In this document: in pieces, positions 4,947 to 60,634 of the stretch | Numbering within the stretch: the stretch's first letter is position 1 | Layout of the letters: every line of letters starts with the position of its first letter | Origin: Dokdonia pacifica | GTDB lineage: Bacteria > Bacteroidota > Bacteroidia > Flavobacteriales > Flavobacteriaceae | Assembly (NCBI RefSeq): GCF_900188275.1 | Contig: NZ_FZNY01000004.1 | Location: forward strand, 402,263 to 466,262 | Direction of reading: 5' to 3' | Length of the DNA stretch: 64,000 bases | Notes under the pieces: generated by a model | The model's database searches: none | What the model saw: the letters and a program-made list of their open reading frames with translations, nothing else | What the model was told of the DNA's origin: nothing | Translations under genes and position numbers: made by a program

Positions 4947-6914
4947 ATGAAAAAGAATATTTCGATACTTCTACTTTTACTTTCCGTTTCAGCATTTGCA
5001 CAGAAATCGTATGAGAAAGCAGATAAGTTTTTTAACCAAATGCGATATGTAGAAGCAGCAAAAGCGTACGAAAAAGGGATTGACCGAGGCGATAACTCTA
5101 TGGAGGTTCTTCAGAAAGCAGGAGACGCTTATTATTTTAACACTGATATGGAACAAGCTAATAAATGGTATGATATTCTCATTAGTAGATACCGAGGTGA
5201 AGTGCATCCAGAATATCTGTTTCGTTTTGCACACACGTTAAGAGGTATAGGAAACTATAAGTCTGCAAATAAGTGGATGAAAGCTTTCGCGAAAGCATCT
5301 AATAAAGAAGATAAACGTATAGATGATTATGCTCAGAAAGAACAAACACTAGCAGATGTAATGGCCATACCACCTGCATTTGAGCTTGCTAATCTTGATA
5401 TTAATACTATATATTCTGATTTTGGCCCTACATATTATGGAAGTAAGCTCATTTATTCTTCGGCTATTGATACTTCTTATTATGTGAAGCGTAGATATCA
5501 TTGGAACAAACAACCGTTTTTAAATTTTTACGAGGGTCAAATTAATGCGACAGAGACAAATGTAAAACGTGAGCGCCCGTTTTCTGAATCACTTAATACA
5601 AAATACCATGAGGCAACACTTACATTTACAAAAGACCATAAGCGTGTTTATTTTACACGTAATAATTACAATGGAGATTTAAAACGTGATGATGAAGGTG
5701 TCAACCATCTTAAACTTTATACAGCAGTTCGTAATGATAGTATTTTTAGTGATTGGAGTGATATACAAGAACTCCCTTTTAATAGTGATGAATACTCCGT
5801 AGGACATCCTACGCTAAGTGCTGACAATAAAAAACTATATTTTGTTTCTGATATGCCAGGGAGTATAGGAGCAACAGATATATTTGTTGTAGATGTTTTG
5901 GATGATAATAGATATTCTACTCCTAAAAATGTTGGACCGACCATTAACACCTCTGGTCGAGAAATGTTCCCTTTTATTACTGAAGACAAATTATACTTTG
6001 CTTCGGATGGACATTTAGGAATTGGAGGGCTCGATGTTTTTGAGAGTGATGTTTTAGAGACTTCTTTTTCAGAACCTCGAAATTTAGGATTACCACTTAA
6101 CAGTAATTTGGATGATTTTGGGTTTATAATAAATGAAGCCAATGAACAAGGGTTTGTGTGTTCTAACAGAGAAGGAGGTGTAGGGGATGATGATATTTAT
6201 GCTTTTAGAAGAACTACACCAGAAAATATTACTGAAGCTATTATAGCTGATAATTGTAAGCAAGTTGTAAAAGGATATGTTAGTAATACAAGAACTAAAG
6301 AGCGTATTGCTGATGTTACCGTAGGATTGTACAGTGAAGAGGGTATAAAGTTAACAGAAACTAAAAGCCAGTTAAATGGAGATTATCAATTCAACTATGA
6401 GTTATTATGCAGTGAGCGTTATGAAATACGTATAGAGAAATTAGGATATAATCTCAATAATAAATTATTTGTTACTTCTAGTATCTCAGAAGAGACAATT
6501 ATTCCTTTGGAATTAGAAACAGTGGATGAGTTGATTGTTGAGGATAACGGTGTCTTAAAAATAAAGGTGGGGATCATATTTTTCGATACTAATAAGAGTT
6601 ATATACGTCCTGATGCTGCTGTAGAACTTAATAAAATTGTGGCATTAATGTTTCAACAACCAGATTTACATATAAGAATTGAATCACATACAGATTCGAG
6701 AGCCAAGGATAGTTATAACCTCGCGCTTTCGCAAAGAAGGGCTGATTCTACAAAAGACTATCTTATCCGACAAGGGGTGTTATCATCTCGTATAGTAGAA
6801 GCTAGAGGATATGGTGAAACACAATTAATCAATAACTGTGAGAACGGTGTTAGTTGTGAAGAGATTGAACATCAATTAAATCGTAGATCAGAATTTGTAA
6901 TTGTCAAAATGTAG
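4947..6914 (+). CDS. OmpA family protein with TPR, PD40 and regulatory-like domains (T9SS-associated)
   Basis: A 655-aa periplasmic/outer-membrane-linked protein. The signal peptide is residues 1-18 (ends AFAQ). TPR-like helices follow at about 20-130 (YEKADKFFNQMRYVEAAKAY), then PD40/WD40-like beta-propeller blades at about 150-420 (GHPTLSADNKKLYFVSD, FPFITEDKLYFASDG), a carboxypeptidase-regulatory-like Ig fold at about 430-520, and an OmpA C-terminal peptidoglycan-binding domain at about 540-655 (IESHTDSRAKDSYN, LSQRRAD). This architecture matches PorE/SprF-partner proteins that anchor T9SS components to peptidoglycan. It is the third gene of the adhesin operon. The palindrome at 5283-5296 supplies residues A113-F-A-K-A117 of the TPR region. 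Assignment to the family is firm; its role in export of this particular adhesin is inferred. Confidence 0.92.
   Translation: MKKNISILLLLLSVSAFAQKSYEKADKFFNQMRYVEAAKAYEKGIDRGDNSMEVLQKAGDAYYFNTDMEQANKWYDILISRYRGEVHPEYLFRFAHTLRGIGNYKSANKWMKAFAKASNKEDKRIDDYAQKEQTLADVMAIPPAFELANLDINTIYSDFGPTYYGSKLIYSSAIDTSYYVKRRYHWNKQPFLNFYEGQINATETNVKRERPFSESLNTKYHEATLTFTKDHKRVYFTRNNYNGDLKRDDEGVNHLKLYTAVRNDSIFSDWSDIQELPFNSDEYSVGHPTLSADNKKLYFVSDMPGSIGATDIFVVDVLDDNRYSTPKNVGPTINTSGREMFPFITEDKLYFASDGHLGIGGLDVFESDVLETSFSEPRNLGLPLNSNLDDFGFIINEANEQGFVCSNREGGVGDDDIYAFRRTTPENITEAIIADNCKQVVKGYVSNTRTKERIADVTVGLYSEEGIKLTETKSQLNGDYQFNYELLCSERYEIRIEKLGYNLNNKLFVTSSISEETIIPLELETVDELIVEDNGVLKIKVGIIFFDTNKSYIRPDAAVELNKIVALMFQQPDLHIRIESHTDSRAKDSYNLALSQRRADSTKDYLIRQGVLSSRIVEARGYGETQLINNCENGVSCEEIEHQLNRRSEFVIVKM
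5283..5296. repeat. GCTTTCGCGAAAGC palindrome, copy 1 (coding, frame AFAKA)
   Basis: A perfect 14-bp copy inside the OmpA-family gene, encoding Ala-Phe-Ala-Lys-Ala in the TPR region. It is one of ten perfect copies in this window, against an expectation of far below one for a random 14-mer in 64 kb. Confidence 0.85.
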
Positions 6915-7194
6915 TTTTTATATAGACAAATCCCGCTTTACGATATGTACAATATCATTTTTTTATGTCAACTGATGTAATGAGGGCAAAATGATATAGT
7001 GTTTTTTCTCTTTTTAAATTACAGTATTTAGTTAGAGGCTATCCCTATGAAGTGTTTAGCGGGTATTTTAATTTTCTTATTTATAGGTAAATGAATCCAT
7101 CTAACAAGCAAAAGTTAGCTAAATTGATTTTAAGCCAGAAACCTTTGAAAATGAAGATGCTATAAAGCAACTTCTAGCTAGAAGCAGATATTTA
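6915..7194. other. Intergenic stretch, no gene seen
   Basis: 280 bp between the OmpA-family gene and the insertion-sequence remnant. It is AT-rich with scattered stops in all frames. I see no promoter consensus, RNA gene or strong hairpin. It may be decayed sequence at the left edge of the accessory island. Confidence 0.5.
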
Positions 7195-7978
7195 GGTTCT
7201 GTCGCATTAATTCTACTATTTCAAATAAACTTAAGTTTGATGTTTATAAAGTAGTTCCATGTACAAACACCATCGATATCCTCACATCATCATACAACAA
7301 GCGGTATATTTTAAATTTCGATTTAGTTTATGTTACCGTGATATTGAAGAATTGATGGCTATTCGGGGTGTTAAAGTTGATCATTCTACAATACAGCGTT
7401 GGGTGTTTAAGTTTTCTAAAGGCATAGAGAAAAATATGAACATTCGTAAGAAGTTAGTCATCGATAGTTGGAGACTTGATGAAACGTATATCAAGGTAGC
7501 AGGTAAGGATAGGTATTTATACCTAGCGGTGGATAAGCAAGGAAATACGATAGATTTCTTACTGACCAAATGAAGAATGAAGGGTTCTGCCCAAAAGTTC
7601 TTGAATAAGGCTATTTGAAATAACGCGAAACTTTGTATTATCAATATTGACAAGAGTGGAGCGAACACTGCTGGAATACGGACTTGGAATAGAAGGAGTT
7701 TGACTTCAAAGAAGATAAAGATTCGGAGAGTCAAGTGTCTCAACAATATTGTAGAACAAAATCATCGAAGCATAAAAGGAAAATTGGAATTACCACAGGA
7801 TTTAAAGAATTTGAATCAGCATAACGGACACTTGCAGGAATAGAAATCATACACATTATTAGAAAAGGAAAGATATTGAGTCCTAAGACATCTATATTTA
7901 AAACTTTTTGTTTACTGGCTACTTAAAGGGTCTGTTTCTTTCTAGATTACATAATCATTGAATTAATGCGACAGAATC
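7195..7978 (+). mobile_element. Decayed IS6-family-like insertion sequence
   Basis: A 784-bp element bounded by inverted repeats: the left end GGTTCTGTCGCATTAATTC (7195-7213) matches the complement of the right end (7960-7978) at 18 of 19 positions. The size, the GG-TCTGT-type ends and the encoded DDE transposase pieces fit the IS6 family. The transposase is broken, so the element is not autonomous. No matching 8-bp target duplication is visible at the flanks, consistent with an old insertion or later rearrangement. Confidence 0.8.
7259..7890 (+). pseudogene. IS6-family transposase, frameshifted remnant
   Basis: The first 104 codons (7259-7573) read as the N-terminal helix-turn-helix and first catalytic Asp of an IS6-type transposase: RFSLCYRDIEEL, VDHSTIQRWVFKF and WRLDETYIKVAGKDRYLYLA. 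A stop at 7571 ends the frame. Further pieces continue downstream in shifted or stop-interrupted frames: INIDKSGANT around the second Asp, and NNIVEQNHRSIKGK carrying the region of the catalytic Glu (about 7742-7785). Intact relatives are about 220-240 aa. Several stops and at least one frameshift make it non-functional. It lies wholly between the element's inverted repeats. Confidence 0.85.
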
Positions 7979-8042
7979 ATAATCACACCTTGTATAAAAA
8001 ATACGTAGCGAAAAGCTATTTTAATATATATAAGATAATTTT

Positions 8043-8077
8043 CAATGAAATCATCATTATAAATAATGATTTCATTG
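8043..8077. promoter_or_regulatory. Perfect 12-bp inverted repeat upstream of the GHKL-nuclease gene
   Basis: The arms CAATGAAATCAT (8043-8054) and ATGATTTCATTG (8066-8077) are perfect reverse complements around an 11-nt AT-rich centre. It lies 30 bp upstream of the -7 box and 58 bp upstream of the ATG at 8136. There is no T-tract on the gene side, so an operator or cruciform is more likely than a terminator. The role is inferred from symmetry and position only. Confidence 0.5.
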
Positions 8078-8106
8078 ATATGCAATAAAACTAAATCCAA
8101 ATAAAC

Positions 8107-8114
8107 TAAATTTG
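8107..8114 (+). promoter_or_regulatory. -7 promoter box TAAATTTG
   Basis: Matches the Bacteroidota -7 consensus TAnnTTTG, 21 bp before the ATG of the GHKL-nuclease gene. No TTG -33 element is seen at the usual 17-23 bp spacing, so this is a partial promoter match. Confidence 0.5.
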
Positions 8115-16176: not shown

Positions 16177-17627
16177 TAGATTTGTTTACGGAGTCTTGCA
16201 ACTGGAAGGTCTAGTTGCTCTCTGTATTTTGCTACAGTACGTCTGGCTATAGGATAGCCTTTTTCCTTTAAAATACCTGCTAATTTATCGTCAGTAAGTG
16301 GTTTTTTCTTGTCTTCCTCTTCGATAACAGTTTCTAGAATCTTTTTGATTTCTCGAGTAGATACTTCTTCACCTTGATCATTGGTCATGCTCTCACTAAA
16401 AAACTCTTTAATAAGTTTGGTTCCATAGGGCGTATCTACATATTTGCTATTTGCTACACGGGAAACGGTAGATACATCCATTTCAATTTCATTAGCGATA
16501 TCTTTTAAGATCATAGGACGTAAGTTGCGTTCGTCACCTGTCAGGAAGTACTCCTTTTGGTAATACATAATAGCACTCATGGTCACAAATAATGTCTGCT
16601 GGCGCTGTAAAATAGCTTCTATAAACCATTTTGCAGCATCGAGCTTTTGTTTTATAAAGATGACGGCATCCTTTTGTGCTTTCGTTTTTTCTTTAGAAGC
16701 CTTATAGCCTTTAAGCATATTACTATAATCTCTAGATACTCTTAATTCTGGCGCGTTACGTCCATTTAGTGAAAGCTCAAGTTCTCCTTCTACAATGCGT
16801 ATCGTAAAATCTGGTACCACATGCTCTACTATCTTTGTATTGCTAGCATAGGAACCTCCGGGTTTTGGATTTAAATGCTCAATCTCTTGAATAGCATTTT
16901 TGAGTTCTTCTTCAGAAATAGAGAACTTAGACATTAATTTTTTGTAATGCTTTTTACTAAAGTGATCAAAAGATTTTTCGAGAATAGCTATGGCAAGTTC
17001 TACAGACTTCGTTGGTGTTTTTCGCGAAAGCTGTAATACTAAACACTCTTCTAGATTACGAGCGGCGACCCCAGATGGATCTAACTCCTGAACTGTAAAA
17101 AGAACTTCTTCTATCTTTTCTTCTGTAGTATATACGTTTTGAGTAAAAGCAAGATCGTCCATTAAGTCTTCTAATGACCTCCTTAGATATCCACTTTCAT
17201 CCAAGCTTCCAATAATAAACTCTGCAATATCACGCTCCTCTTGCGATAGACGAAACGTATTGAGCTGTGTTTTCAAGTATTGGTTAAATGAAGTTCCAGA
17301 GGCATATGGTACTTGTTTATCTTCATCATCTGCACTATAATTATTAGCACTCAATCGATAATCAGGTATCTCATCATCACTTAGATATTCATCTACATTG
17401 ATTTCGGTTTCTATGGTGTCATTCCCAAAATCTTCTTCGGTATTGCTAAACTCATCAAATTCATCCTTAACTTCTTCCTTGCCACTATCTAGCGCAGGGT
17501 TTTCTTCAAGCTCTTGTTTTATTTTTTGTTCAAAAGCCTGCGTAGGCAATTGAATCAATTTCATCAACTGTATTTGTTGAGGAGATAGCTTTTGAGAGAG
17601 TTTAAAATTAAGTTGTTGTTTCAGCAT
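16176..17627 (-). CDS. rpoN: RNA polymerase sigma-54 factor RpoN
   Basis: A 483-aa alternative sigma factor directing RNA polymerase to -24/-12 promoters. Region I at the N-terminus is Gln/Leu-rich (LNFKLSQKLSPQQIQLMKLIQLP), followed by an acidic region II (about 50-100), the core-binding domain (about 105-300: GYLRRSLEDLMDDL, LDPSGVAARNLEECLVLQL), the HTH (DIANEIEMDVSTVSRVANSKYV) and the C-terminal RpoN box RRTVAKYREQLDLPVARLR. Length is normal. A -7 box lies only 5 bp before the ATG, so the message may be leaderless. It overlaps the downstream membrane gene. A half-preserved GCTTTCGCGAAA palindrome sits at about 17017-17031. No sigma-54 activator is next to it. Confidence 0.97.
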   Translation of the reverse strand: MLKQQLNFKLSQKLSPQQIQLMKLIQLPTQAFEQKIKQELEENPALDSGKEEVKDEFDEFSNTEEDFGNDTIETEINVDEYLSDDEIPDYRLSANNYSADDEDKQVPYASGTSFNQYLKTQLNTFRLSQEERDIAEFIIGSLDESGYLRRSLEDLMDDLAFTQNVYTTEEKIEEVLFTVQELDPSGVAARNLEECLVLQLSRKTPTKSVELAIAILEKSFDHFSKKHYKKLMSKFSISEEELKNAIQEIEHLNPKPGGSYASNTKIVEHVVPDFTIRIVEGELELSLNGRNAPELRVSRDYSNMLKGYKASKEKTKAQKDAVIFIKQKLDAAKWFIEAILQRQQTLFVTMSAIMYYQKEYFLTGDERNLRPMILKDIANEIEMDVSTVSRVANSKYVDTPYGTKLIKEFFSESMTNDQGEEVSTREIKKILETVIEEEDKKKPLTDDKLAGILKEKGYPIARRTVAKYREQLDLPVARLRKQI

Positions 17628-18357: not shown

Positions 18358-19148
18358 GTGATGTCGTTTTTTGATTCGTATGAGAGGTGCATCTCGGTGC
18401 CATCTCCTTCAGTTGACGAGACTTCAATGGTAGCGCCAATTAGTTTTCCTCTGGACTCTATATTTGAGAGTCCTATTCCATTTTTCGCTTTCGCGAAAGC
18501 CATATCAAACCCAATCCCGTTGTCTTTAGCTTTAATGTCTACACTATTTTGGGTGTAGGTGATACATACATCTAAATGACTTGCCTTTGAGTGCTTAATG
18601 GTATTCGTAAAAAACTCCTGAAATATTCTAAAAATAATAGATCCTATTTTTTTATCAATTGTAATAGGAGTTCCGGTTACATTTAAACTCGTGGTTAGAT
18701 ATTCCATACGAGTAAAACGATCTAATTCCAGTTCTAACGCTTCTACAAGCGTCATGTTTTTAAGCGCTTCTGGATTGATAAGTCTAGATAAAGCACGTAT
18801 TTCTGTAAGTCCTTTTCCTATGGTACTTGCTGCTTCATCCAGTTGCTTTTGATCTCCTCCAGAATTTTGAGTTTGTATTTTAGCTAAGGTTAATAACTGT
18901 CCAATATTATCATGCAACTCCCAACTTATATTTCGTAAGGTCTCTTCTCTAATCTCTATTTGTGACTCTGCAATCTCTCGTTCAAAACGTTTTTGAGAAT
19001 CTTGTTGTTCTATTAAAAGCTCATTTTTTCGCCTGATAAATACAGAAAATAAAACCCCAACTACAATTAATAAAAGTAGCAATATTGTTATAGATACTAG
19101 CGCTAGTATTAGCGTGTTGTCATCTGGGTTACTTAGGTATATGGGCAA
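18354..19148 (-). CDS. HPK7-type sensor histidine kinase (HisKA_3)
   Basis: A 264-aa inner-membrane kinase. It has one TM helix (about 12-35), a short coiled linker (about 40-70), the dimerisation/phospho-acceptor helix WELHDNIGQLL with H79, and an HATPase_c domain (about 160-260: N box FQEFFTNTIKHSKA, G1 DNGIGFD, G2 NGIGLSNI). There is no periplasmic sensor domain, so the signal is probably sensed in the membrane or through a partner. The ATP-lid segment between G1 and G2 contains A217-F-A-K-A221, encoded by the palindrome at 18487-18500. It is coupled to the response regulator by a 4-bp overlap. Confidence 0.95.
   Translation of the reverse strand: MPIYLSNPDDNTLILALVSITILLLLLIVVGVLFSVFIRRKNELLIEQQDSQKRFEREIAESQIEIREETLRNISWELHDNIGQLLTLAKIQTQNSGGDQKQLDEAASTIGKGLTEIRALSRLINPEALKNMTLVEALELELDRFTRMEYLTTSLNVTGTPITIDKKIGSIIFRIFQEFFTNTIKHSKASHLDVCITYTQNSVDIKAKDNGIGFDMAFAKAKNGIGLSNIESRGKLIGATIEVSSTEGDGTEMHLSYESKNDIT
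18487..18500. repeat. GCTTTCGCGAAAGC palindrome, copy 2 (coding, frame AFAKA)
   Basis: A perfect copy within the histidine-kinase gene, falling in the ATP lid between the G1 and G2 boxes, a loop that tolerates sequence change. Confidence 0.85.
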
Positions 19149-22300: not shown

Positions 22301-22627
22301 AGTATTTTAATTTTTAATCCCATACTGGGTTTGATTCCTCTGACTTTTTGAGCCAGAACTTCCTTGATATTCTTTAATTATTTTTCTTTCAAAGAAAGAC
22401 GTAAATTAAAGAAAGGCAAATATAAATGATGTTTTGAAATTGACAGCCTACTTTTAGAGGGTAATTTTACTCAATCATTGAGATTGCAATATGCTGAGAC
22501 CTGTATTAAAACTAAAAATTAGTTTTCTACTAATACATTGTAGGTTTTGCTGGGGATTCTTTTTTTATACGCTTTCGCGAAAGCGTATACAGCAACAGCT
22601 CTATTTTGGGATATACTTTTGAGGTAC
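22301..22627. other. asnS-RND intergenic region with palindrome
   Basis: 327 bp without a gene. Apart from the palindrome at 22566-22589 and AT-rich sequence with CTTTCAAAGAAAG dyad (around 22385-22397), I see nothing notable. Confidence 0.5.
22566..22589. repeat. Extended GCTTTCGCGAAAGC palindrome, copy 3 (intergenic)
   Basis: The 14-bp core (22571-22584) is extended by TATAC/GTATA-type flanks to a 24-bp perfect palindrome, the longest in the window. It lies 39 bp after the RND exporter gene's stop codon. No T-tract follows, so it is not an ordinary terminator. Confidence 0.88.
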
Positions 22628-31749: not shown

Positions 31750-31763
31750 GCTTTCGCGAAAGC
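31750..31763. repeat. GCTTTCGCGAAAGC palindrome, copy 4 (intergenic, rpsI-rpsB)
   Basis: A perfect core in the 162-bp gap between two ribosomal protein genes, preceded by TATAC. It lies in the presumed leader or internal spacer of rpsB. Confidence 0.85.
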
Positions 31764-37821: not shown

Positions 37822-38568
37822 GATGGGTTAGTTGATTTTAGATTGTTAAGATGATGTGTAAATATAAATAATTGAGTACGTATTCAGATAATATCATTTA
37901 AAAATATGTGTACTGCTATTTCTACTAGTCTTGATATCATGTAAATGTTACACAATTACATTGTATTCTTTCAAGTGTATATAGAAAATAGAGTAATATT
38001 CTAATTTAGAGTAATACGCTATTTTTATACCTCCCTCAATCCCTACTTTCTAGGAGGGAAGTGTTTATATTTTGTGTTTTAGTATTTCAAATGTATTTAG
38101 AGAAGAGTTTTCCCTCCTAAGAAGGAGGGCTAGGGAGGTGTGACTTTTGAGAAAGTAAAAACCTTAGTCATCTCGATCCTTCGACTTCGCTCGGGATAAA
38201 CTTTTAGGAGAGATCACACAAGTAGCTCAAGTATAATTTGTGAATACTGTTATGCGATTTCTCGTCACTCGTACCTCGTTCTGTCGAAATGACGCTAGTA
38301 TACATTTTCGCGAAAGCGGTGACTTCGATACAATTTTAGCTATACACGATGTTTCTATCTAACATCACTCAGTCATCTATATCTAGTCTATTTTCTTTTT
38401 TCTATATTCTATGATCTCTTTTCTGAAAAATTAATGTGCTTCTAGGTATATGTGTAACGGAAAGTTTTTAAAAAATCAAAAAGGAAAAGTTCTGATTTTT
38501 TAAAAAACGACCACCTAGATTAGAATTTTACAATACTTCGTCGTTCGTACCTCCAACTTCGTACTTCC
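37822..38568. other. 747-bp intergenic region with several inverted repeats
   Basis: No gene. It holds three structured parts. First, a large imperfect inverted repeat: ACCTCCCTCAATCCCTACTT at about 38030-38049 pairs with AGAAGGAGGGCTAGGGAGGT at about 38120-38139, and a nested TAGGAGGGA/TCCCTCCTA pair lies inside. Second, a stretch from 38165 to 38340 with dyads such as CTTCGACTTCGCTCGGGAT and a half-palindrome TTTTCGCGAAAGCGG at 38306. Third, a 15-16-bp stem GTTTTTAAAAAATCA/TGATTTTTTAAAAAAC at 38464-38508, which may terminate transcription in either direction. The sequence looks like a stack of repeat elements. Confidence 0.6.
38464..38508. repeat. AT-rich inverted repeat downstream of polA
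   Basis: Arms GTTTTTAAAAAATCA and TGATTTTTTAAAAAAC match except for one extra T, around a ~14-nt purine-rich loop. It lies 60 bp beyond the polA stop codon (polA is on the minus strand) and could be a weak terminator. Confidence 0.5.
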
Positions 38569-41412
38569 TTAATGTGCTTCTAGCCAGTTATGACCCAATC
38601 CTACTTCTACGTCTAAGGGAACATTCATTTTAAATGCATTTTCCATTTCAGTTTTGATAAGGGTTTTCATTGTTTCTAACTCTTCATTAGGAACATCAAA
38701 CACCAATTCATCATGCACCTGAAGTAGCATTTTGGTTTGGTAGTCGCTGTTTTCAAGTTTCTCATAAATATTGATCATGGCAAGCTTAATAATATCGGCA
38801 GCACTTCCTTGTATGGGAGCATTTACCGCATTACGCTCGGCAGCGCCACGTACAATGGCATTTCCAGAATTGATATTTTTTAAATAACGACGTCTGTCTA
38901 ATACGGTTTTTACATACCCATTATCACGTGCAAAATCTACTTGCTCACTCATGTAATTGCGAAGCTTTGGATAGGTTTTGTAATAGGTGTCTATCAATTC
39001 TTTAGCCTCTGATCGTGAAAGATCTGTCTGATTACTTAATCCAAATGCAGATACCCCATAAATGATTCCGAAGTTCACTGTTTTGGCATTGCTACGTTGC
39101 TCACGCGTTACTTCATCTAGAGGTACATTAAATACTTTGGCAGCGGTAGAGGCATGAATATCTTCTCCGTCTTGAAATGCTTTGATCATCGTTTCCTCTT
39201 CACTTAAAGCAGCGATAATACGTAACTCTATTTGAGAGTAATCGGCAGCGAGTAAGGTGTGGTTTTCATTACGCGGAATAAATGCTTTACGCACTTCACG
39301 GCCACGTTCTGTACGAATCGGAATATTTTGAAGATTTGGATTGTTAGAACTTAAACGCCCTGTAGCTGCTACCGTTTGCATATAATCGGTATGCACACGA
39401 TGATCTATTCCTACCTGTGTTGGCAAGGCATCTACATAGGTAGATTTTAGTTTAGTAAGTCCTCTATAATCTAATATCTTCTGGATGATTTCATGATCTT
39501 TTGCTAGATAAGAAAGTACATCTTCTGCTGTAGAATACTGACCTGTTTTGGTCTTTTTAGGTTTGTCTACCAGCTTCATTTTATCAAAAAGGATTTCTCC
39601 TAATTGTTTTGGTGATCCGATATTAAATTCTTCACCAGCTTCAGCATAAATCTCTGAGGTGAGACGTGTGATATCTGCTTCTAGTTCTTCAGAAAGTTTC
39701 TCTAGAAAGTCAACATTTAGATTGATCCCTTCCAATTCCATAGCGGCCAGCACACGTAGTAATGGAATCTCAATGTCATCAAATAATTTCCTTGTTCCTG
39801 CTTCGTCTAGCTCTTTTTCAAAATGCTTTTTAAGCTGTAATGTAATATCTGCATCTTCTACGGCATATTCTGTTTGCTGATCTAATGGGACCTGACGCAT
39901 AGAAAGCTGATTCTTTCCTTTTTTTCCAATCAGTTCTGTAATAGATACAGGTGTATAATTGAGATAGGTTTCTGCAAGCACATCCATGTTGTGTCTCATG
40001 TCAGGATTGATGAGGTAATGTGCGAGCATGGTATCAAAGAGTTTTCCTTTTACAGTAACTCCATACTTGGCAAGTACTTTAAGATCGTATTTTAGGTTTT
40101 GCCCTATTTTTTCAATGCTTTCAGCTTCAAAAAATGGAAGTATTTCTTGAATCAATTCTTTTACTTGTTCCTGATCTTCTGGAAAGGGAATGTAAAAACC
40201 TTTTCCCACTTCCCAAGAAAATGCAATCCCTACTAGCTCAGCTGTAAGTGGATCAAGACCCGTTGTTTCGGTATCAAAACAAACGGAAGTTTGCCCCATA
40301 AGGCTATTCATAAATAGCTTTCGCGAAAGCGGACTATCCACACTTTGATATACATGTGGTGTATCTTTGATTGTTTTTCTGGTAGATCCAGCTTGCATAC
40401 TGTCTGTAATGGCCTCACTATCTCCTCCAAAAAGAGAAAACTGTCCTTCACCTGCGGCAGGTTTTGGCGCTTGTTTTTTGGTGGCTGTAGTCGTGGTAGG
40501 TGGTGGTGCTTCTCCAGAAAATATTTTTACGAACTGATCTTTCATACGTCTGAATTCCAGTTCGTCAAATTTCTTACCTACGGCTTCAGCATCTGGTTCA
40601 GAGAGTTCATAATCTGATGCGTCAAAGGTTACATCACAATCTAGCATAATAGTAGCTAGTTGTTTTGAAAGTAATCCAAGCTCAGCATTTGCCTCGACTT
40701 TTTCTTTCATCTTCCCTTTAAGCTGATCTGTATTTTCAAGTAACCCTTCCATAGAGCCATATGCGGCAATAAACTTTTTAGCCGTTTTATCACCTACACC
40801 AGGTAAGCCAGGAATATTATCACTAGCATCTCCCATCATTCCTAAGTAGTCAATGACTTGTTCTGGACGTTCTACCTCAAAACGTTTTTGTACTTCTGGA
40901 ATTCCCCAGATTTCAATACCATTCCCCATTCGGGCAGGTTTGTACATAAATATATTTTCAGATACTAGCTGTGCATAATCTTTATCTGGTGTAACCATAT
41001 ACACTTTGTATCCTTCTTTTTCGGCTTGTTTTGATAAGGTTCCTATAAGATCATCTGCTTCTACACCTTCACGTTCTACAATAGGAATGTGCATGGCTTT
41101 TAAAATTTCCTTAATATGAGGAACGGCTATTTTTATAGCTTCAGGAGTTTCGTCACGATTTGCTTTATACTCGGGGAAGGCTTCAACGCGAGCGCTACTA
41201 CCTCCTTTGTCAAAGGCAACGGCCAGATGATCAGGGCGTTCTCTTCGTATAACGTCAAAAAGACTATTTGTAAATCCCATAATGGCGCTTACATCCATTC
41301 CAGAACTGGTGATTCTAGGGTTCTTTATAAGTGCGTAATAACCTCTAAATATGAGTGCAAAGGCATCGAGTAAAAAAAGTCTTTTTTGTGTGTTTTCTTC
41401 AGTATTGGTCAC
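38569..41412 (-). CDS. polA: DNA polymerase I
   Basis: A 947-aa repair and Okazaki-fragment polymerase with all three activities. The 5'-3' exonuclease/FEN domain is residues 1 to about 290 (LFLLDAFALIFRGYYAL, VEADDLIGTLSKQA, GDASDNIPGLPGVGDKTA). A Pro/Thr/Gly-rich linker follows (about 300-345). The 3'-5' exonuclease (about 365-550) keeps the catalytic Asp-Glu pair in CFDTETTGLD, so proofreading is probably active. The polymerase domain (about 570-947) has DYSQIELRIIAALS, RSNAKTVNFGIIYG and LLQVHDELVFDV. Length is normal. The palindrome at 40317-40330 encodes L-S-R-K-L at about residues 361-365, at the boundary between linker and exonuclease. A second palindrome lies just upstream of the start. 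Confidence 0.98.
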   Translation of the reverse strand: MTNTEENTQKRLFLLDAFALIFRGYYALIKNPRITSSGMDVSAIMGFTNSLFDVIRRERPDHLAVAFDKGGSSARVEAFPEYKANRDETPEAIKIAVPHIKEILKAMHIPIVEREGVEADDLIGTLSKQAEKEGYKVYMVTPDKDYAQLVSENIFMYKPARMGNGIEIWGIPEVQKRFEVERPEQVIDYLGMMGDASDNIPGLPGVGDKTAKKFIAAYGSMEGLLENTDQLKGKMKEKVEANAELGLLSKQLATIMLDCDVTFDASDYELSEPDAEAVGKKFDELEFRRMKDQFVKIFSGEAPPPTTTTATKKQAPKPAAGEGQFSLFGGDSEAITDSMQAGSTRKTIKDTPHVYQSVDSPLSRKLFMNSLMGQTSVCFDTETTGLDPLTAELVGIAFSWEVGKGFYIPFPEDQEQVKELIQEILPFFEAESIEKIGQNLKYDLKVLAKYGVTVKGKLFDTMLAHYLINPDMRHNMDVLAETYLNYTPVSITELIGKKGKNQLSMRQVPLDQQTEYAVEDADITLQLKKHFEKELDEAGTRKLFDDIEIPLLRVLAAMELEGINLNVDFLEKLSEELEADITRLTSEIYAEAGEEFNIGSPKQLGEILFDKMKLVDKPKKTKTGQYSTAEDVLSYLAKDHEIIQKILDYRGLTKLKSTYVDALPTQVGIDHRVHTDYMQTVAATGRLSSNNPNLQNIPIRTERGREVRKAFIPRNENHTLLAADYSQIELRIIAALSEEETMIKAFQDGEDIHASTAAKVFNVPLDEVTREQRSNAKTVNFGIIYGVSAFGLSNQTDLSRSEAKELIDTYYKTYPKLRNYMSEQVDFARDNGYVKTVLDRRRYLKNINSGNAIVRGAAERNAVNAPIQGSAADIIKLAMINIYEKLENSDYQTKMLLQVHDELVFDVPNEELETMKTLIKTEMENAFKMNVPLDVEVGLGHNWLEAH
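40317..40330. repeat. GCTTTCGCGAAAGC palindrome, copy 6 (coding, frame LSRKL)
   Basis: A perfect copy in polA, read in a different frame from the AFAKA copies, at the junction between the interdomain linker and the 3'-5' exonuclease. Confidence 0.85.
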
Positions 41413-41428: not shown

Positions 41429-41448
41429 TACGCTTTCGCGAAAGCGTA
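41429..41448. repeat. TACGCTTTCGCGAAAGCGTA palindrome, copy 7 (upstream of polA)
   Basis: A 20-bp perfect palindrome 17 bp upstream of the polA ATG, within its presumed leader. At this position it could form a leader hairpin or bind a protein. Confidence 0.87.
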
Positions 41449-46647: not shown

Positions 46648-46739
46648 GTCGTTATGATCTGTTTAGCTTTTGTGTTTTGATTGATTTAGTAGAAGTTTCA
46701 CTTTCGTGAAAACGTACCATGTATGTTTAAATGACTGCT

Positions 46740-47330: not shown

Positions 47331-50242
47331 TACTGTATAGCAATTTCATCTACAAATATCCAGCTGCGGCCTTCGTATGGATGTCCTTTATGCCATGTAG
47401 GAACAGGTCCTAGTGTTTTGGCAATGAGTTTTACATAGCGAATATTTGATCGTTTTTCTTGTCCTTTAATCGTTTTGATAGCCACCTTGTCTGTTGGAGT
47501 AGGAGTTGCTATTTTTTGACTTTTATAGGATTGGAAGTTTTTACCATCTGATGAGACCAGTAACTCAACTTCAGTAGGGAAGAAAATCCAACTCCCTTGA
47601 TCTTCTAAGAAATGGGTTTCTATAGATGTGATATTTTGATTTTTTCCTAAGTCAACTGTTGCAATAACATCCCTGTCATGATATCCTTGCCAAGTACCTG
47701 TTCGGAAGTTAGCGGTTCCTCGTATACCATCGATAAGTGCATCATTTCCTCCTGCATTGTATGCATTTGCATACTCGGCATCTAGTTGTATAGATAGATT
47801 TTCGTCTATTTTATAAAATTCGGTTTTGATCGTGACACTTTTTTGTCCTTCTTTTTCTGAATAAGTATAAAGAGTAGTGGGTTCTGTAATGGTAATAGGT
47901 CCCTCATACTTTAGGAAATCACCTTCAGAAGTACTATAGTAAATCGTTGTTTCTTCTTCTCCGGTACCTAATACAATTTCTGTTTGTTTTTTAAAGGCAA
48001 TATCACCTTTGGCAATAAACGGAACAGGTACGATAAGTGATTCTTTAATTTCAGTACTTGGAATATGTGCATTATCTGTCGCCCAATTAGAAGGTTGAGC
48101 GCTCATTTCAAAAATTAAAGTTCCCCCTTTTGTAATATCATCATGTGTAATGTAAGAGTAGGGGTGTGATACTCCATTTAATTTCGCGGAAGCGATATAG
48201 ATATTTTCATCAGAAAGATTGTTTGCTTGAACTGTAAATATGTTTCCGTTTTCAAGATGGATAGATGCTTTATCAAATAATGGTGCTCCAATAATATATT
48301 GATTACTACCTGGTGTTACGGCATAAAAGCCCATACTACTTAACACATACCAAGCACTCATTTGACCACAATCTTCATTTCCAGAGACGCCATCTGGTTC
48401 GTTTTTATATAATGTGGTTAAAATCTCGCGTACCTTTTCTTGTGTTTTATGAGGCTTGTTTATGAAGTTGTATAGATACGCCATATGATGGCTAGGTTCA
48501 TTACCGTGGGCATATTGTCCTATAAGCCCCGTGATATCTGCCTGATCACGTCCAGATGTTTGTGACTCTGCGGTAAATAGCTCATCCAGTTGTGTCTCTA
48601 ATGCTTTTTTACCCCCTATTAACTTCGTAAATCCAGTAATATCTTGAGGAACATAAAAGCTATATTGCCAAGCATTTGCTTCTGTGTAATTGAAATTCAC
48701 TTCAAATGGATCAAAAGGAGAAAACCAAGTATTACGTACACGACCGCGCATAAATTTACTACTAGGATCAAACGTGTTTTTATAATACTGAGCTCTTTCT
48801 ATAAAAGTGTTATAGGTAGTCATATCTCCTTTAGATTTTGCCATTTGAGCAATCGTCCAGTCATCATAAGCATACTCTAATGTTTTAGATACCGATTCAG
48901 ATTCTTCTTCTACAGGAATGTATCCAAATTCTTTATAGGCTTCAAGCCCCAAATGATCTCTTGTTGCACTATGGAGCATCGCTTCAAATGCTTTGTCTGT
49001 ATCGTACCCACGTATACCTTTCATATAGGCATCTGCAATCACAGGAACGCCATGATATCCAATCATACACCCTGTGTAATTTGCAGAGAGATCCCACATA
49101 GGTAGAATACCTCCCTCGTCATATTTGGCGAGGAATGTATTTATAAAATCATTGGTACGATTTTCTTCAATAATCGTGTATAGTGGGTGTGCGGCTCTAT
49201 AAGTATCCCATAATGAGAATACAGTATAATAATCAAAATCTGTAGTTTGGTGAATTTCTTGATCTATACCGCGATATCTCCCGTCGATATCTTGATAGAT
49301 ATTAGGAGCAATCATGGTGTGGTATAAAGCACTGTAAAAATTTGTTTTATTATCCAAATGCGAATCTTCAATCACAATTTTAGAAAGCTGTTTTTCCCAA
49401 GTGTCTTTTGCTTCTTGTTTGATTTGATCAAAGGTTTTAGAACCAATTTCTGTATCTAGATTTTTCTTTGCCCCAGCTTCATCTACAGCCGATATGCCTA
49501 CAGAAACATAAATAGGTTCATTGTTTGGGTTGTCAAACTGTAGTGCTAGTTTTGTGGGAGTGTCTGGATGATTTGGTGTGGTTTTAAATGGATGTGATGT
49601 TTTTAAGTAGTAATATAATTTTTGTTCTTTAGCCCATGATTCAGAAAATCTATGTCCGCTTATTTCAGTATCAGAAAGGATATTGATACTGCCATCTAAT
49701 AAGATGTCTCTATGTTCAATATCTAAGATGATGTATTGATTATTCGCTTTCGCGAAAGCGTATTTATGCATCCCTGCTCTTTGTGTCACTGTAAGGGCAA
49801 CATCAATATTTGTACTATCTAAATGTACCTCATAATAACCAGGACTTGCTTTTTCTTTGTCATGTGAAAATGGAGCGCGATAACCAGGTTTTCCATCAGC
49901 GCCATTATGGAAATTTACAGACGTTGTAGGCATTAATAAAATATCGCCATAATCTAAAATTCCTGTGCCACTTAAATGCGTATGACTAAATCCATAGATA
50001 TACATATCGTCATAATGATATCCAGAACAGCCATCCCAGCCTTCTAACCTAGTATCGGGGCTTAATTGCATCATTCCAAAAGGCATTGTGGCTCCAGGAT
50101 AGGTATGTCCGTGACCACCTGTCCCAATAAATGTGTTCACATAGCTAGTTAATGGTTGTGATACCGTGGCTATAGAAATGGTGTCTTTTTTACAACTAAA
50201 ACAAATACAAATAAATGAGAAAAGTAGGATTTTGAAACGCAT
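47330..50242 (-). CDS. GH92 family alpha-mannosidase, lipoprotein
   Basis: A 970-aa secreted glycosidase. The signal peptide ends ICFSCKK, with Cys at residue 16. The GH92 core spans about 30-760: VNTFIGTGGHGHTYPGATMPFGM near the N-terminus (key part GTGGHGHTYPGATMPFG), RLEGWDGCSGYHYDD, FSLWDTYRAAHPLYTII, GNEPSHHMAYLYNF, and GNEDCGQMSAWYVLSSMGFY with the catalytic acid/base region. Then come a chitobiase/GH20-like C-terminal domain and an F5/8 type C (discoidin) domain from about 845 (RGTANFRTGTWQGYHDRD, VELLVSSDGKNFQSY). GH92 enzymes are exo-acting calcium-dependent alpha-mannosidases of N-glycans. It starts the operon with the membrane protein and the glycosylasparaginase. A palindrome at 49746-49759 encodes AFAKA. 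Confidence 0.95.
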   Translation of the reverse strand: MRFKILLFSFICICFSCKKDTISIATVSQPLTSYVNTFIGTGGHGHTYPGATMPFGMMQLSPDTRLEGWDGCSGYHYDDMYIYGFSHTHLSGTGILDYGDILLMPTTSVNFHNGADGKPGYRAPFSHDKEKASPGYYEVHLDSTNIDVALTVTQRAGMHKYAFAKANNQYIILDIEHRDILLDGSINILSDTEISGHRFSESWAKEQKLYYYLKTSHPFKTTPNHPDTPTKLALQFDNPNNEPIYVSVGISAVDEAGAKKNLDTEIGSKTFDQIKQEAKDTWEKQLSKIVIEDSHLDNKTNFYSALYHTMIAPNIYQDIDGRYRGIDQEIHQTTDFDYYTVFSLWDTYRAAHPLYTIIEENRTNDFINTFLAKYDEGGILPMWDLSANYTGCMIGYHGVPVIADAYMKGIRGYDTDKAFEAMLHSATRDHLGLEAYKEFGYIPVEEESESVSKTLEYAYDDWTIAQMAKSKGDMTTYNTFIERAQYYKNTFDPSSKFMRGRVRNTWFSPFDPFEVNFNYTEANAWQYSFYVPQDITGFTKLIGGKKALETQLDELFTAESQTSGRDQADITGLIGQYAHGNEPSHHMAYLYNFINKPHKTQEKVREILTTLYKNEPDGVSGNEDCGQMSAWYVLSSMGFYAVTPGSNQYIIGAPLFDKASIHLENGNIFTVQANNLSDENIYIASAKLNGVSHPYSYITHDDITKGGTLIFEMSAQPSNWATDNAHIPSTEIKESLIVPVPFIAKGDIAFKKQTEIVLGTGEEETTIYYSTSEGDFLKYEGPITITEPTTLYTYSEKEGQKSVTIKTEFYKIDENLSIQLDAEYANAYNAGGNDALIDGIRGTANFRTGTWQGYHDRDVIATVDLGKNQNITSIETHFLEDQGSWIFFPTEVELLVSSDGKNFQSYKSQKIATPTPTDKVAIKTIKGQEKRSNIRYVKLIAKTLGPVPTWHKGHPYEGRSWIFVDEIAIQ
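49746..49759. repeat. GCTTTCGCGAAAGC palindrome, copy 8 (coding, frame AFAKA)
   Basis: A perfect copy in the GH92 gene encoding A-F-A-K-A at about residues 162-166, between two beta strands of the N-terminal domain (KYAFAKANNQYI). Confidence 0.85.
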
Positions 50243-51145: not shown

Positions 51146-52925
51146 ATACAGCCATAAATGCTTCCTGCGGAATTTCTACATTTCCAACAGCACGCATACG
51201 TTTCTTTCCTTTCTTTTGCTTTTCTAGAAGTTTACGCTTACGCGAAATATCACCACCATAACATTTGGCAGTTACATCTTTACGAAGTGCTTTTACCGTC
51301 TCACGCGAAATGATTTTTGCACCAATAGCAGCTTGGATAGGAATATCAAACTGTTGGCGTGGTATTAACTGGCGTAGTTTTTCACACATCTTCTTTCCTA
51401 TATCATACGCATTATCTTGATGTAATAATGCAGAAAGTGCATCTACAGGCTGACTATTTAAAAGGACATCTACCTTTACAAGTTTAGAAGCACGCATTCC
51501 TATAGGAGAGTAATCAAAAGAAGCATATCCTTTTGATACTGTTTTTAAACGATCATAAAAATCAAAAACAATCTCAGCTAGAGGCATGTCAAATGATAAT
51601 TCTACACGTTCAGGTGTAAGATATGTTTGATTGGTAATGGTTCCTCGTTTTTCTATACACAATGACATTACGGGACCTACAAAATCAGATTTTGTAATGA
51701 TAGAAGCCTTGATAAAAGGTTCTTCTACACGATTCATTTTAGATGGATCAGGGAGATCTGATGGGTTATTTACAAGAATAATCTCATCAGGGTGTTTATG
51801 TATGAATGCGTGATAAGATACGTTAGGTACGGTAGTAATCACCGTCATGTCAAATTCGCGCTCTAGACGTTCTTGAATAATCTCAAGATGTAGCATTCCT
51901 AGAAATCCACAACGGAATCCAAATCCTAGTGCTGCTGAACTTTCAGGCTCAAAAACCAGCGAAGCATCATTTAATTGAAGTTTCTCCATAGAAGCACGAA
52001 GTTCTTCATAATCTTCTGTATCTACAGGGTAAATTCCTGCAAATACCATAGGTTTTACATCTTCAAAACCTTCTATAGCATTTTGTGTAGGGGTTTTAGC
52101 ATCTGTAATAGTATCTCCTACTTTTACTTCACGAGCATCTTTTATTCCTGTAATAAGATATCCTACATCTCCTGTTTTTATTTCTTTTTTAGGAACTTGG
52201 TTTAACTTTAAAGTACCTACTTCATCAGCACCATAGGTATTGCCAGTTGCAATAAACTTTATCTGCTGATTTTTCTTAATACTTCCATTTAAAATTCTAA
52301 AATACGTTTCTACACCTCTAAAAGGATTGTATACAGAATCAAAAATAAGTGCTTGTAATGGTTCGTCTGGATTTCCTTTTGGAGCAGGTATGCGATCTAT
52401 AACTGCAGCTAGGATTTCTTTAATTCCTATACCCGTTTTCGCGGAAGCGGGAATAACCTCTTCAGCATCACATCCTAATAAGTCTACAATATCATCTGTT
52501 ACTTCTTCAGGATTTGCACTAGGTAAATCTACTTTGTTAAGTACTGGGATGATTTCAAGATCATTTTCAAGAGCTAAATATAAATTAGAAATAGTTTGCG
52601 CTTGGATACTTTGTGCGGCATCAACAACAAGTAAAGCCCCTTCACAAGCTGCGATACTTCTTGATACCTCGTAGGAAAAATCTACATGGCCTGGAGTGTC
52701 TATTAAATTAAGAATATATTCTTCACCTTTATAGGTGTATTCCATCTGTATTGCATGAGATTTAATGGTGATTCCACGTTCTCTTTCTAAGTCCATACTA
52801 TCAAGCAATTGCGCCTGAGCCTCACGTTTGGTAACTGTAGAGGTTTCATCGAGCAAACGGTCAGCTAATGTGCTTTTACCATGGTCAATATGGGCAATGA
52901 TGCAAAAATTTCTGATATTCTTCAT
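51129..52925 (-). CDS. lepA: Elongation factor 4 (LepA)
   Basis: A 598-aa translational GTPase that remodels stalled or assembling ribosomes. GTPase motifs are G1 [16 protein letters not shown]2 [10 protein letters not shown]3 [12 protein letters not shown] and G4 NKVDLP. The family-specific C-terminal domain contains [20 protein letters not shown] and [17 protein letters not shown], which mark LepA rather than EF-G. Length is standard (about 598). It is a single gene, convergent with cutC. The sequence [11 protein letters not shown] is the conserved G5 region, where a degenerate palindrome (52436-52450) happens to lie. Confidence 0.98.
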
Positions 52926-56632: not shown

Positions 56633-57871
56633 ATGAAAAAGCTCATTTTAGGTATTACGTTACTAAGTTTGATCTCTTGTAAAAAAGAATCAACCTTTCA
56701 GTATACAATGCAAGACGATGTAACCTTTCTGGCTTCAGATGATTTACAAGGGCGTAAGACGGGTACTGAAGGAGAATTAAAGGCTGCAAATTATATCAAA
56801 GAGCGGTTTGCTGCTTTAGGGTTATCTCCAAAAGGAAATGAAGAAACTTTCTTTCAAACCTTTTCATTTGCTCCTAAAAATGATCCTCATGGCGAAGTAC
56901 GCTTTCGCGAAAGCGGAAACGACTCTCTTATTACGGGTACAAATGTGATAGGGTATATCGATAATAAAACATCACATACGATTGTTATAGGAGCACATTA
57001 CGATCATTTAGGAATGGGCGGTGAAGGCTCTTTGCATAGAGATGGTGAGGCCATTCATAATGGAGCTGATGATAATGCAAGTGGTGTGGCGGTTTTATTA
57101 CAATTAGCACAGAAACTTCAAGGGCCATCTTATAAAGGAAATAATTACCTGTTTATTGCTTTTTCTGGAGAAGAAATGGGCTTGCTGGGTTCTAATTATT
57201 TTACCAAAAATGCAACTATACCACTTTCTGAAATTAATTATATGATTAATATGGATATGGTAGGAAGACTTAATACAGAAAAAGCATTGGCCATACATGG
57301 GGTAGGAACTTCACCTTCTTGGAATCAGACGGTATTTGCAGCTAACACTTCTTTTGAGCTAGCAGAGCATGAAAGTGGAGTAGGACCTTCAGATCATACA
57401 TCGTTTTATTTAAATGATATTCCGGTATTACATTTATTTACAGGCCAGCATGATGATTATCATAAACCTGGAGACGATAGTGAAAAACTCAATTATGAGG
57501 GGATGCAAATGATAGAAGACTATATTTTGGCAATCATTTCTGAACTTGATAATAACGGAAAAATAGCTTTCACTAAAACCAAAGATGAGAGTGCTGTTGT
57601 GCCAAGTTTTAAAGTAGGTTTAGGTGTTGTGCCTGATTATCTATTTTCTGGAAAAGGAATGCGTATAGATGGGGTGAGTGATGGAAAAGCAGCTCAAAAT
57701 GCAGGTCTTGAAAAAGGAGATGTTGTTATTAAAATGGGGGATAGTACTGTGGTAGATATGATGAGTTATATGCGTGTGCTCTCCACCTTTGATGCAGGCG
57801 ATACCACGACAATTGTTATTGATAGAAAAGGAGAAAACCTCACTAAAGAAATTGTTTTTATAAAGGACTAG
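56633..57871 (+). CDS. M28 family zinc peptidase with PDZ domain, lipoprotein
   Basis: A 412-aa predicted lipoprotein (LLSLISC, Cys at residue 16). Residues about 25-300 form the M28 aminopeptidase fold with the expected di-zinc ligand set: IGAHYDHLGMGG (His, Asp), NGADDNASGVAVLLQL (Asp), IAFSGEEMGLLGS (Glu-Glu), MINMDMVGR (Asp) and HDDYHKPGDD (His). A PDZ domain follows (about 315-400: GMRIDGVSDGKAAQNAGLEKGDVVI). Such enzymes release N-terminal amino acids in the periplasm or outside the cell. The palindrome at 56901-56914 encodes R90-F-R-E-S94 in the loop before the first catalytic strands. The stop codon runs directly into a long-form repeat element. Confidence 0.95.
   Translation: MKKLILGITLLSLISCKKESTFQYTMQDDVTFLASDDLQGRKTGTEGELKAANYIKERFAALGLSPKGNEETFFQTFSFAPKNDPHGEVRFRESGNDSLITGTNVIGYIDNKTSHTIVIGAHYDHLGMGGEGSLHRDGEAIHNGADDNASGVAVLLQLAQKLQGPSYKGNNYLFIAFSGEEMGLLGSNYFTKNATIPLSEINYMINMDMVGRLNTEKALAIHGVGTSPSWNQTVFAANTSFELAEHESGVGPSDHTSFYLNDIPVLHLFTGQHDDYHKPGDDSEKLNYEGMQMIEDYILAIISELDNNGKIAFTKTKDESAVVPSFKVGLGVVPDYLFSGKGMRIDGVSDGKAAQNAGLEKGDVVIKMGDSTVVDMMSYMRVLSTFDAGDTTTIVIDRKGENLTKEIVFIKD
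56901..56914. repeat. GCTTTCGCGAAAGC palindrome, copy 9 (coding, frame RFRES)
   Basis: A perfect copy in the M28 peptidase gene, in the third possible reading frame, encoding F-R-E-S preceded by Arg. Confidence 0.85.
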
Positions 57872-57937
57872 TACGCTTTCAAGGAGAGAAGCGACACAGA
57901 AGTTTATACTGAGCGATGTCTAAGTGCGAAAGCATAT
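57870..57937. repeat. 67-bp long form of the palindrome element, copy B
   Basis: The reverse complement of this segment aligns base by base, without gaps, to copy A at 36944-37011: CTTTCGCACTT, CAGTATAAACTTCTG and CCTTGAAAGCG are shared, with about a dozen substitutions between. It begins at the stop codon of the M28 peptidase and ends 27 bp before the dus start. Confidence 0.78.
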
Positions 57938-57963
57938 AAAGAAAATATAGTTAAAAGAATAGC

Positions 57964-58956: not shown

Positions 58957-58957
58957 A

Positions 58958-60163: not shown

Positions 60164-60556
60164 TTACGATTTTTTTCTTTTTTCCAATAGGGTAGGATCT
60201 TCAATAGGATTATCAATTCCTTTAAGAGATCTGTCTATTTCTTCCATGTATTCAAGAGAATCATCTATATAAAATTGAAGTTCAGGCATGCGCCTTAATT
60301 GATGACGTGTGCGTTGTGAAATCTCATGCCTAATTTTAGGTTTAACTAAATTGAGCTCTTCAAGCATTTTTTGAGCCTCAGCATTTGGGAATACACTTAT
60401 ATATACTTTGGCAATAGAAAGATCTGTTGGGACTTTTACTTTTGAGACAGATACAATAATGCCTCTATGACCACTATCTCTTAAGGCATTTTGTAATACA
60501 TCTGCTAGGTCTTTTTGTAAAACACCTGCTACTTTCTTCTGTCTGTTAGATTCCAT
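60164..60556 (-). CDS. rbfA: Ribosome-binding factor A
   Basis: 130 aa from ATG 60556. It binds the maturing 30S subunit in 16S rRNA processing. Conserved patterns: RQKKVAGVLQKDLADVLQ, IVSVSKVKVPTDLSIAKVYISVFP, RHEISQRTRHQLRRMPELQFYIDDS. A longer frame from GTG 60571 would be interrupted by the -7 box TATTTTTG at 60561-60568, so the ATG is chosen. It is the first gene of an rbfA-permease unit. Confidence 0.96.
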   Translation of the reverse strand: MESNRQKKVAGVLQKDLADVLQNALRDSGHRGIIVSVSKVKVPTDLSIAKVYISVFPNAEAQKMLEELNLVKPKIRHEISQRTRHQLRRMPELQFYIDDSLEYMEEIDRSLKGIDNPIEDPTLLEKRKKS

Positions 60557-60560
60557 ACGG

Positions 60561-60568
60561 CAAAAATA
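60561..60568 (-). promoter_or_regulatory. -7 promoter box TATTTTTG of rbfA
   Basis: A perfect TAnnTTTG on the minus strand, 4 bp before the rbfA ATG, so the message would be close to leaderless. It decides the start. Confidence 0.6.
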
Positions 60569-60620
60569 CACTTTTTATAGATTGTGTTACTTTTGTAGGG
60601 CATGTTTTCAGTAATTATAT

Positions 60621-60634
60621 GCTTTCGCGAAAGC
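60621..60634. repeat. GCTTTCGCGAAAGC palindrome, copy 10 (intergenic)
   Basis: A perfect copy between divergent rbfA and the epimerase gene, 24 bp before the epimerase start and about 55 bp upstream of the rbfA promoter. Confidence 0.85.

Follow-up and report, generated by a model that had tools for sequence, protein, structure and literature searches.

The DNA uptake sequences (DUS) of Neisseria are exactly conserved in all genomes in 71% of cases at about 85% identity, are spaced like conversion fragments and occupy permissive positions; where they are absent, mostly a one-mismatch or an unrelated sequence is present, and strain-specific insertions contain fewer of them (PMC2397512). A steep fall with mismatch load has been reported for uptake sequences (PMC1939737), the uptake signal sequence (USS) of Haemophilus includes AT-rich tracts and is present in few copies in an island (PMC7811141), and in S. 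muelleri overlapping pairs of DUS are arranged in dyad symmetry (PMC3630211). In cyanobacteria, the sites of the highly iterated palindromes (HIP) have been linked to methylases, with about one HIP1 per kb (PMC4390886). Here we describe a perfect palindrome of 14 bp, GCTTTCGCGAAAGC, which occurs in ten exact copies in a 64-kb window of Dokdonia pacifica, a member of the Flavobacteriaceae (the window being the whole stretch of 64,000 nucleotides analysed, positions 402,263 to 466,262 of contig NZ_FZNY01000004.1). At a probability of roughly 0.48, this palindrome may be a DNA uptake or self-DNA signal of the Dokdonia/Nonlabens group.

All ten copies were found at exactly the coordinates given in a preliminary description of the window, and with up to two mismatches allowed the window holds 14 matches, compared with a mean of 0.05 in dinucleotide shuffles. 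The whole genome (G000, 5,520,745 bases) contains 903 copies of the 14-mer and 0 of its reversed, uncomplemented control, so that the two outcomes which that description had named as damaging, a frequency near expectation and a restriction to this window, both fail. Moreover, 209 other palindromes obtained by permutation of the half-site amount to 0 copies in total in 864 kb of carrier DNA. Within the genus Dokdonia, 369-905 copies were counted in 18 of the 18 genomes examined (control 0 in each), and the copy number does not grow with genome size: 899-905 copies are present in two genomes of 3.3 Mb, 903 in the one of 5.5 Mb and 570 in one of 4.3 Mb. The density in carriers is about one copy per 3.6-6 kb.

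In a scan of 299 genomes of the family, in which 236 genera were sampled, any copy was found in 61 genomes. Five of them are motif-rich and represent 3 of the 236 genera, namely Dokdonia itself (903 copies in G000, 857 in G002), g11 (578 and 664) and g191 (408); the remaining 56 contain 1-19 copies each. Genus g11 is likely to be Nonlabens. Two copies in 13 kb are present both in Nonlabens ulvanivorans (L018) and in the metagenome-assembled genome SAT149 (L017), and L016 is a locus of an uncultured Dokdonia sp., the M28 peptidase of which shows 88% identity. The scan of the phylum gave matches in 22 of 395 genomes, eight of which lie outside the family with one copy each, and the reversed control gave one match each in 13 genomes outside the family. 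Among the loci of at least 8 kb from a set of 80 related loci and L104, repeated 10-mer palindromes were found only in L016 and L017, which at about 13 kb per genome is a weak test. A repeat of 17 bases, GTGCTTAAAACACGCAA, was noticed three times in 20 kb of L104 (G303, from a genus with 16-19 palindromes).

The analysis of spacing and conservation covered 464 kb from G000, some 540 kb from the carrier G001 and 40-140 kb from other genomes. Twenty 20-kb windows taken around the G001 chromosome hold 4-7 sites each (20/20; mean 5.8, variance/mean 0.14), and in 5-kb bins of these windows the variance/mean is 0.24 versus 1.09 in simulations that keep the split between coding and non-coding sites, the observed value being reached by 0 of 1000. 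Intervals shorter than 1.5 kb account for 8% of the total versus 43% in the simulations. Regularity of spacing had been put forward as a test of the motif, and the sites have turned out to be more evenly placed than random. Contiguous regions are less sharp in this respect, at 0.48 for G001, 0.34 for G003, 0.51 for G004 and 0.48 for G006 (reached by 3, 0, 8 and 17 of 1000 simulations, respectively), and G000 without the part of contig C17 beyond 331 kb gives 0.57 (0/1000); when that part is included, the sites of G000 are uneven, with a coefficient of variation of 1.30. The first 100 sites of G001 have a coefficient of variation of 0.74 compared with 0.98 at random, and two gaps of about 16.7 kb are found among them. 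Distances between pairs of sites are depleted below 2 kb and roughly flat farther out, which is indicative of repulsion and not of a lattice; neither a chromosome gradient nor a long-range period was detected in the sampled G001 windows.

The copies are predominantly exact. In 464 kb of G000 the mismatch spectrum comprises 73 exact, 6 one-mismatch and 13 two-mismatch copies, and in 400 kb of G001 116, 5 and 13, respectively, and the inner 10-mer is found 77 times versus 63 for the full site in C17 of G000 and 126 versus 116 times in G001. The base adjoining the 14-mer is C in 75 and 89% of the G000 and G001 sets, the second flanking base is A in 64 and 59% and the third is T in 84 and 77%, all of these being mirrored on the other side. 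The flanks are T-rich and then A-rich, and their bias is weaker than that of the core: on the 5' side of each arm C is scarce as far as about position -18, whether the site is coding or non-coding. The two arms vary almost independently of each other, with no clear compensatory pairing: in a covariation test with all sites, z ranged from -2.0 to 2.4 at 20 positions, the two highest values (2.1 and 2.4) lying near the core, and with coding sites only one position was at z -3.0. Since the arms do not pair, reading of double-stranded DNA by a protein would be likelier than an RNA hairpin.

Between relatives the sites are retained far above the level of ordinary sequence. For G001 and G003 (about 80% DNA identity), 25 of 31 aligned sites are exact (10/41 unaligned) versus 11.8% of 109,650 ordinary 14-mers, and for G001 and G004 25/29 (12 unaligned) versus 12.8%. 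The pair G001/G006 keeps 17/18 (23 unaligned), G003/G004 32/34 (4 unaligned) versus 35.2% of 14-mers, and G003/G006 25/25 (13 unaligned) versus 46.7%. With the distant G007 and G009, 1-6 sites align per pair, and those kept range from 0/2 (G009 to G007) and 0/1 (G007 to G009) up to 5/5. In the window, comparison with G012, G013, G015 and L016, in which sites 5283 and 49746 have no alignment, gave 15 exact matches out of 16 at 82-88% aligned identity. The perfect sites of the window and their two-mismatch relatives are the following:

5283..5296, perfect 14-bp site in an OmpA/PD40-type gene (open reading frame (ORF) 4947-6914, + strand), read as AFAKA; no alignable relative.
18487..18500, perfect site in ORF 18354-19148 (- strand), read as AFAKA; exact in G015, G013 and G017.
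22566..22589, perfect palindrome of 24 bp that includes the site at 22571, in the spacer of a tandem gene pair.
31750..31763, perfect intergenic site; all three aligned relatives have it in exact form.
33621..33634, perfect site in the first part of the DUF5916 gene 33567-36272 (+ strand), AFAKA being codons 19-23; exact in G012, G013 and G015.
40317..40330, perfect site in the DNA polymerase I gene 38569-41412 (- strand), read as PLSRK; exact in G013, G015, G009 and G017.
41432..41445, perfect site in the spacer immediately upstream of the polymerase gene; kept exactly in G015, with two mismatches in G013.
49746..49759, perfect site in the GH92 glycosidase gene 47330-50242 (- strand), read as AFAKA.
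56901..56914, perfect site in the M28 peptidase gene 56633-57871 (+ strand), read as RFRES; L016 and G017 have it in exact form.
60621..60634, perfect site in the spacer of two divergent genes; kept exactly in L016.
17018..17031, two-mismatch relative; a perfect site is present at the orthologous place in G013 (L172).
38304..38317, two-mismatch relative with the usual left flank GTATAC.
52435..52448, relative with a mismatch count of two.

The degenerate relatives reported earlier were thus recovered, the three listed above at two mismatches and those near 46701 and 48183 at three, as counted from the sequence contexts. The extension of several copies by their flanks was confirmed as well: the 16-mer CGC...GCG is present in 5 of the 10 copies and the 20-mer TACGC...GCGTA in two, one of which (22571) is the 24-bp palindrome.

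At individual places the core is kept while its surroundings change. The core at 22571 is exact in G015 and G013 despite differing flanks, and G001 and G003, the two relatives that could be aligned at the GH92 site, both keep it exactly although the proteins are only 64-67% identical. At 64-87% protein identity the genes keep the site in some relatives and not in others. G001, G003 and G007 have another sequence, without an indel, at the place of site 18487, and their polymerase I reads PLARK instead of PLSRK; RFRES of the M28 peptidase is replaced in L017, L018 and G009 by unrelated codons for an equal number of residues. The comparison of orthologous genes with and without the site, which the preliminary description had called for, shows that in several coding genes the siteless orthologue is of equal length.

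Sites that are not shared differ in what they face. Four of the six G001 sites not kept in G003 are opposite a one-mismatch relic, whereas the sequence opposite the six sites that G003 has and G001 lacks differs at 3-8 positions in every case, with gaps in three; in both sets the difference may be a gain or a loss. Where a site is absent from some relative, its neighbours lie closer (median 1.5 versus 2.0 kb, n=25 and 100), with a one-sided p of 0.014 that is optimistic because orthologues were counted more than once. An insert of about 24 bp was seen to split the palindrome in two cases (L155/L186 in G009, and L099 versus L100), once near the start of the DUF5916 gene; it resembles a dispersed flavobacterial repeat.

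Placement relative to genes was evaluated for 189 sites in 864 kb of carrier DNA, with ORFs of at least 80 amino acids called by length only and covering 90% of the DNA. The sites had been described as irrespective of gene content. Genes and spacers do both carry them, but 101 sites lie in ORFs and 88 outside, which makes them about eight times denser outside ORFs, so that the claim holds only in part. All three frames are used in the coding copies, with AFAKA in 55, LSRK in 26 and FRES in 20 of the 101. Among the 86 non-coding sites flanked by genes, 55 lie in tandem, 16 in divergent and 15 in convergent spacers, the corresponding spacer lengths being 55, 21 and 8 kb, which indicates some preference for convergent but not for divergent spacers. 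Codons 19-23 of the DUF5916 gene are likely to belong to a signal-peptide region. Inspection by eye showed that several proteins (that of 33567-36272 and those of similar genes in G000 and G001) have AFAKA at codons 12-19 with Q, Y or H as the next residue, and since this is where a signal peptide would end, the DNA tag may have shaped cleavage regions.

In several low-copy genera the few copies lie clustered: G095 (L097), G104 (L099), G118 (L096), G128 (L100) and G231 (L098) contain parts of a common island with 2-4 exact palindromes per stretch, two of which, at a distance of 933 bp from each other, are present in exact form in four of these five genomes. Its translations (L097, by eye) include look-alikes of CusA-type efflux proteins, P-type ATPases and a multicopper oxidase, and this putative metal efflux/copper resistance island is likely to have been transferred out of the motif-rich clade. 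Differences among its sites could stem from decay in the new hosts or equally from donors that differed. Twelve viral contigs carry the 18-base extended form; 11-28 kb of each were read and found to contain 2-4 sites. Several of the twelve are nearly identical, and some further viral stretches among the matches listed hold two 14-mers. Since these contigs were picked for matching the motif, they give no density for phages at large. Phage contigs with the palindrome inside structural and replication genes are L207, L221, L230, L238, L261, L272, L288, L299 and L330. The genes hit encode a head maturation protease, a terminase, an HNH endonuclease, a primase and a phage ATPase. Three of the stretches also encode an integrase or a Mu-type transposase, and the transposase of one motif-bearing phage matched none of 41 genomes. 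Contig C17 of G000 includes a stretch of 60 kb without a single site (about 331-392 kb, L127-L130). This stretch encodes a strawberry-notch-type helicase, an Eco57I/N6-methylase-like protein and TPR/CHAT and CHASE2 proteins, and was probably acquired. As to the rarity in acquired DNA that characterises uptake sequences, there is one siteless stretch with mobile-type genes, yet some phages carry sites.

The even spacing and the letter-perfect copies amid changing DNA suggest a 'self-DNA' tag of the sort described from a few other bacteria. If the palindrome is an uptake or self-DNA signal, a symmetric, probably dimeric protein would read the exact 14-bp core together with the C-poor arms to about 18 bp on each side. 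Fragments bearing a site would be preferred in the uptake or recombination of related DNA, and alleles with the site would replace those without, by which sites would be perfected and held in place; a second site within about 1.5-2 kb would be superfluous. We tentatively suggest that this could be the first uptake-type signal of the Bacteroidota, strictly palindromic and read symmetrically, as double-stranded DNA, by the pilus-less uptake system found in Flavobacteriaceae, with a spacing that would arise from transformation-coupled drive and a tag that temperate phages would copy. Riemerella, of the same family, is transformable by means of ComEC, DprA, a DUF5689 protein, a barrel protein and further proteins, although no pilus homologues were found (PMC8459023); R. 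columbina prefers its own DNA, although the repeats of up to 10 bases counted there were A- or T-rich words (PMC7965970). Neither the 14-mer nor a comparable signal of the Bacteroidota was found in print in a search that left subscription journals mostly outside.

Several points weigh against an uptake signal. DUS and USS are, to our knowledge, not perfect palindromes. Sites in structural and replication genes of some temperate-type phages are not simply predicted by such a signal, and a test of whether new sites nearby compensate for lost ones gave mixed values: for 6 of the 13 sites found only in G001, one found only in G003 lies no more than 1.4 kb away (one case being a 24-bp alignment shift), and the p values for median distance are 0.75 (G001/G003), 0.007 (G001/G004), 0.72 (G001/G006), 0.52 (G003/G004) and 0.59 (G004/G006). 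Searches for protein families in 15 carriers and 5-24 non-carriers revealed the pilus/type II ATPase PF00437 over the cut-off in 6/15 carriers and 3/16 non-carriers, so that the distribution of the classical uptake machinery does not match that of the motif, and pilus-based uptake of the classical type was rejected on the grounds that this ATPase is absent over the cut-off from 9/15 carriers. Because a pilus-less system has been reported in the family, this result lowers the membership in the known DUS/USS and not the functional likeness. Finally, no report of competence of a clade member was found in the literature surveyed, and Flavobacterium johnsoniae was not competent under the conditions in which R. 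columbina was (PMC7965970).

A rather doubtful, but serious, alternative is a chromosome-organising landmark needed every few kb, to which a clade-specific protein would bind in the cell for nucleoid folding, segregation or supercoil control. A palindrome with symmetric arms suits a dimeric DNA-binding protein, the uniform density around the G001 chromosome, the exact conservation and the even spacing agree with it, and 2-4 sites on each of the twelve viral contigs would be expected if chromosome-resident DNA needs them; the one phage transposase searched, however, had no counterpart in 41 genomes, and the sampled windows have neither the gradient nor the long-range period mentioned above. A relative of ParB/Noc was considered as the reader and dismissed, since duplication of ParB is not in step with the motif: there is no clade-specific paralog, 13/15 carriers having one ParB and two (G000 and G013) having two, as do 5/24 non-carriers. 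If, on the other hand, a methylase recognised the CGCG or TCGCGA core and methylation-linked repair ratcheted the sequence towards the palindrome, the element would be of the HIP1 type, with which it shares palindromy, hyper-abundance and clade limits. This we consider improbable. The inner 10-mer is scarce outside the full site, unlike a methylase target of 4-6 bp, and none of the four methylase families searched (Pfam) is common to all 15 carriers, PF00145 being found in 6, PF01555 (over the cut-off) in 2, PF02086 in 9 and PF02384 in 14. The N6-methylase family PF02384 comes closest and a methylase of another family could be involved, but PF02384 is missing from the carrier G207 (408 sites, one contig) and present in 5/5 non-carriers and 13/14 control genomes, and G006 (808 sites) and G258 (664) have none of the other three over the cut-off.

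Still less probable is a Chi-like or recombination hot-spot sequence or another cis signal, for which the density of one site in 3.6-6 kb and the scarcity of C in the arm on each 5' side would be suitable, the short asymmetric form of Chi standing against a 14-bp palindrome with arms to about 18 bp. The least credible explanation invokes an RNA hairpin (for termination or processing), a motif at the peptide level or a mobile repeat that has inserted repeatedly. Self-folding of the core is possible and AFAKA is the commonest reading, but the use of all three frames and the 88 non-coding copies do not fit a peptide motif, and the hairpin or terminator was rejected because the arms show no clear covariation and the flank bias is the reverse of that of a terminator. 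An inserted repeat was likewise discarded, as the siteless orthologous place is equally long in several coding genes, yet there are gaps at some aligned places.

In this motif, marine Bacteroidota offer a sharp and testable case of a DNA tag that extends over the genome. Should it be an uptake signal, pilus-less transformation of the Flavobacteriaceae could be sequence-specific and the motif could serve as bait for the receptor; should it be a chromosome landmark, it would represent a spacing ruler of a new type. In both cases the motif can serve as a barcode by which DNA transferred horizontally from the clade is recognised; the common island is an illustration.

The early remark that the sequence recalls HIP1 or uptake/organisation sequences while differing from them has been borne out by the copy number, the clade restriction, the conservation and the even spacing. 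Like HIP1 and the alternate HIPs of cyanobacteria, the element is palindromic, hyper-abundant and limited to a clade, but it is 14 bp long instead of 8 bp, occurs once per 3.6-6 kb instead of about once per kb, has few partial copies and lacks a common methylase among the four families; a later study of HIP1 reportedly argued for selection and periodicity. Noc-binding sites, parS, matS and SlmA sites are palindromes or nearly so and are read by a dimer, the Noc-binding sites and parS being of similar size, but the roughly 900 copies, the lack of regional bias in the sampled chromosome and the lack of an extra ParB in step with the motif set the present element apart. Chi sites, which are short and asymmetric, share with it the occurrence of a copy every few kb, whereas the element is palindromic and longer. 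With DUS and USS it has in common exact copies in hundreds to thousands, a clade-specific dialect, conservation above background, permissive positions, regular spacing on the kb scale, few one-mismatch copies, possibly scarcity in islands and, in the case of USS, AT-rich flanks; it differs in the perfect 14-bp palindrome, the spacing of 3.6-6 kb versus about 1-1.5 kb, the occurrence in Bacteroidota, the sites in phage genes and the lack of a pilus ATPase over the cut-off in most carriers. The uptake analogy fits better than HIP1 because no methylase of the four families is common to all carriers, and it is the likeness to the feature set of DUS, together with the pilus-less transformation of Riemerella, that places an uptake or self-DNA signal before a chromosome landmark.

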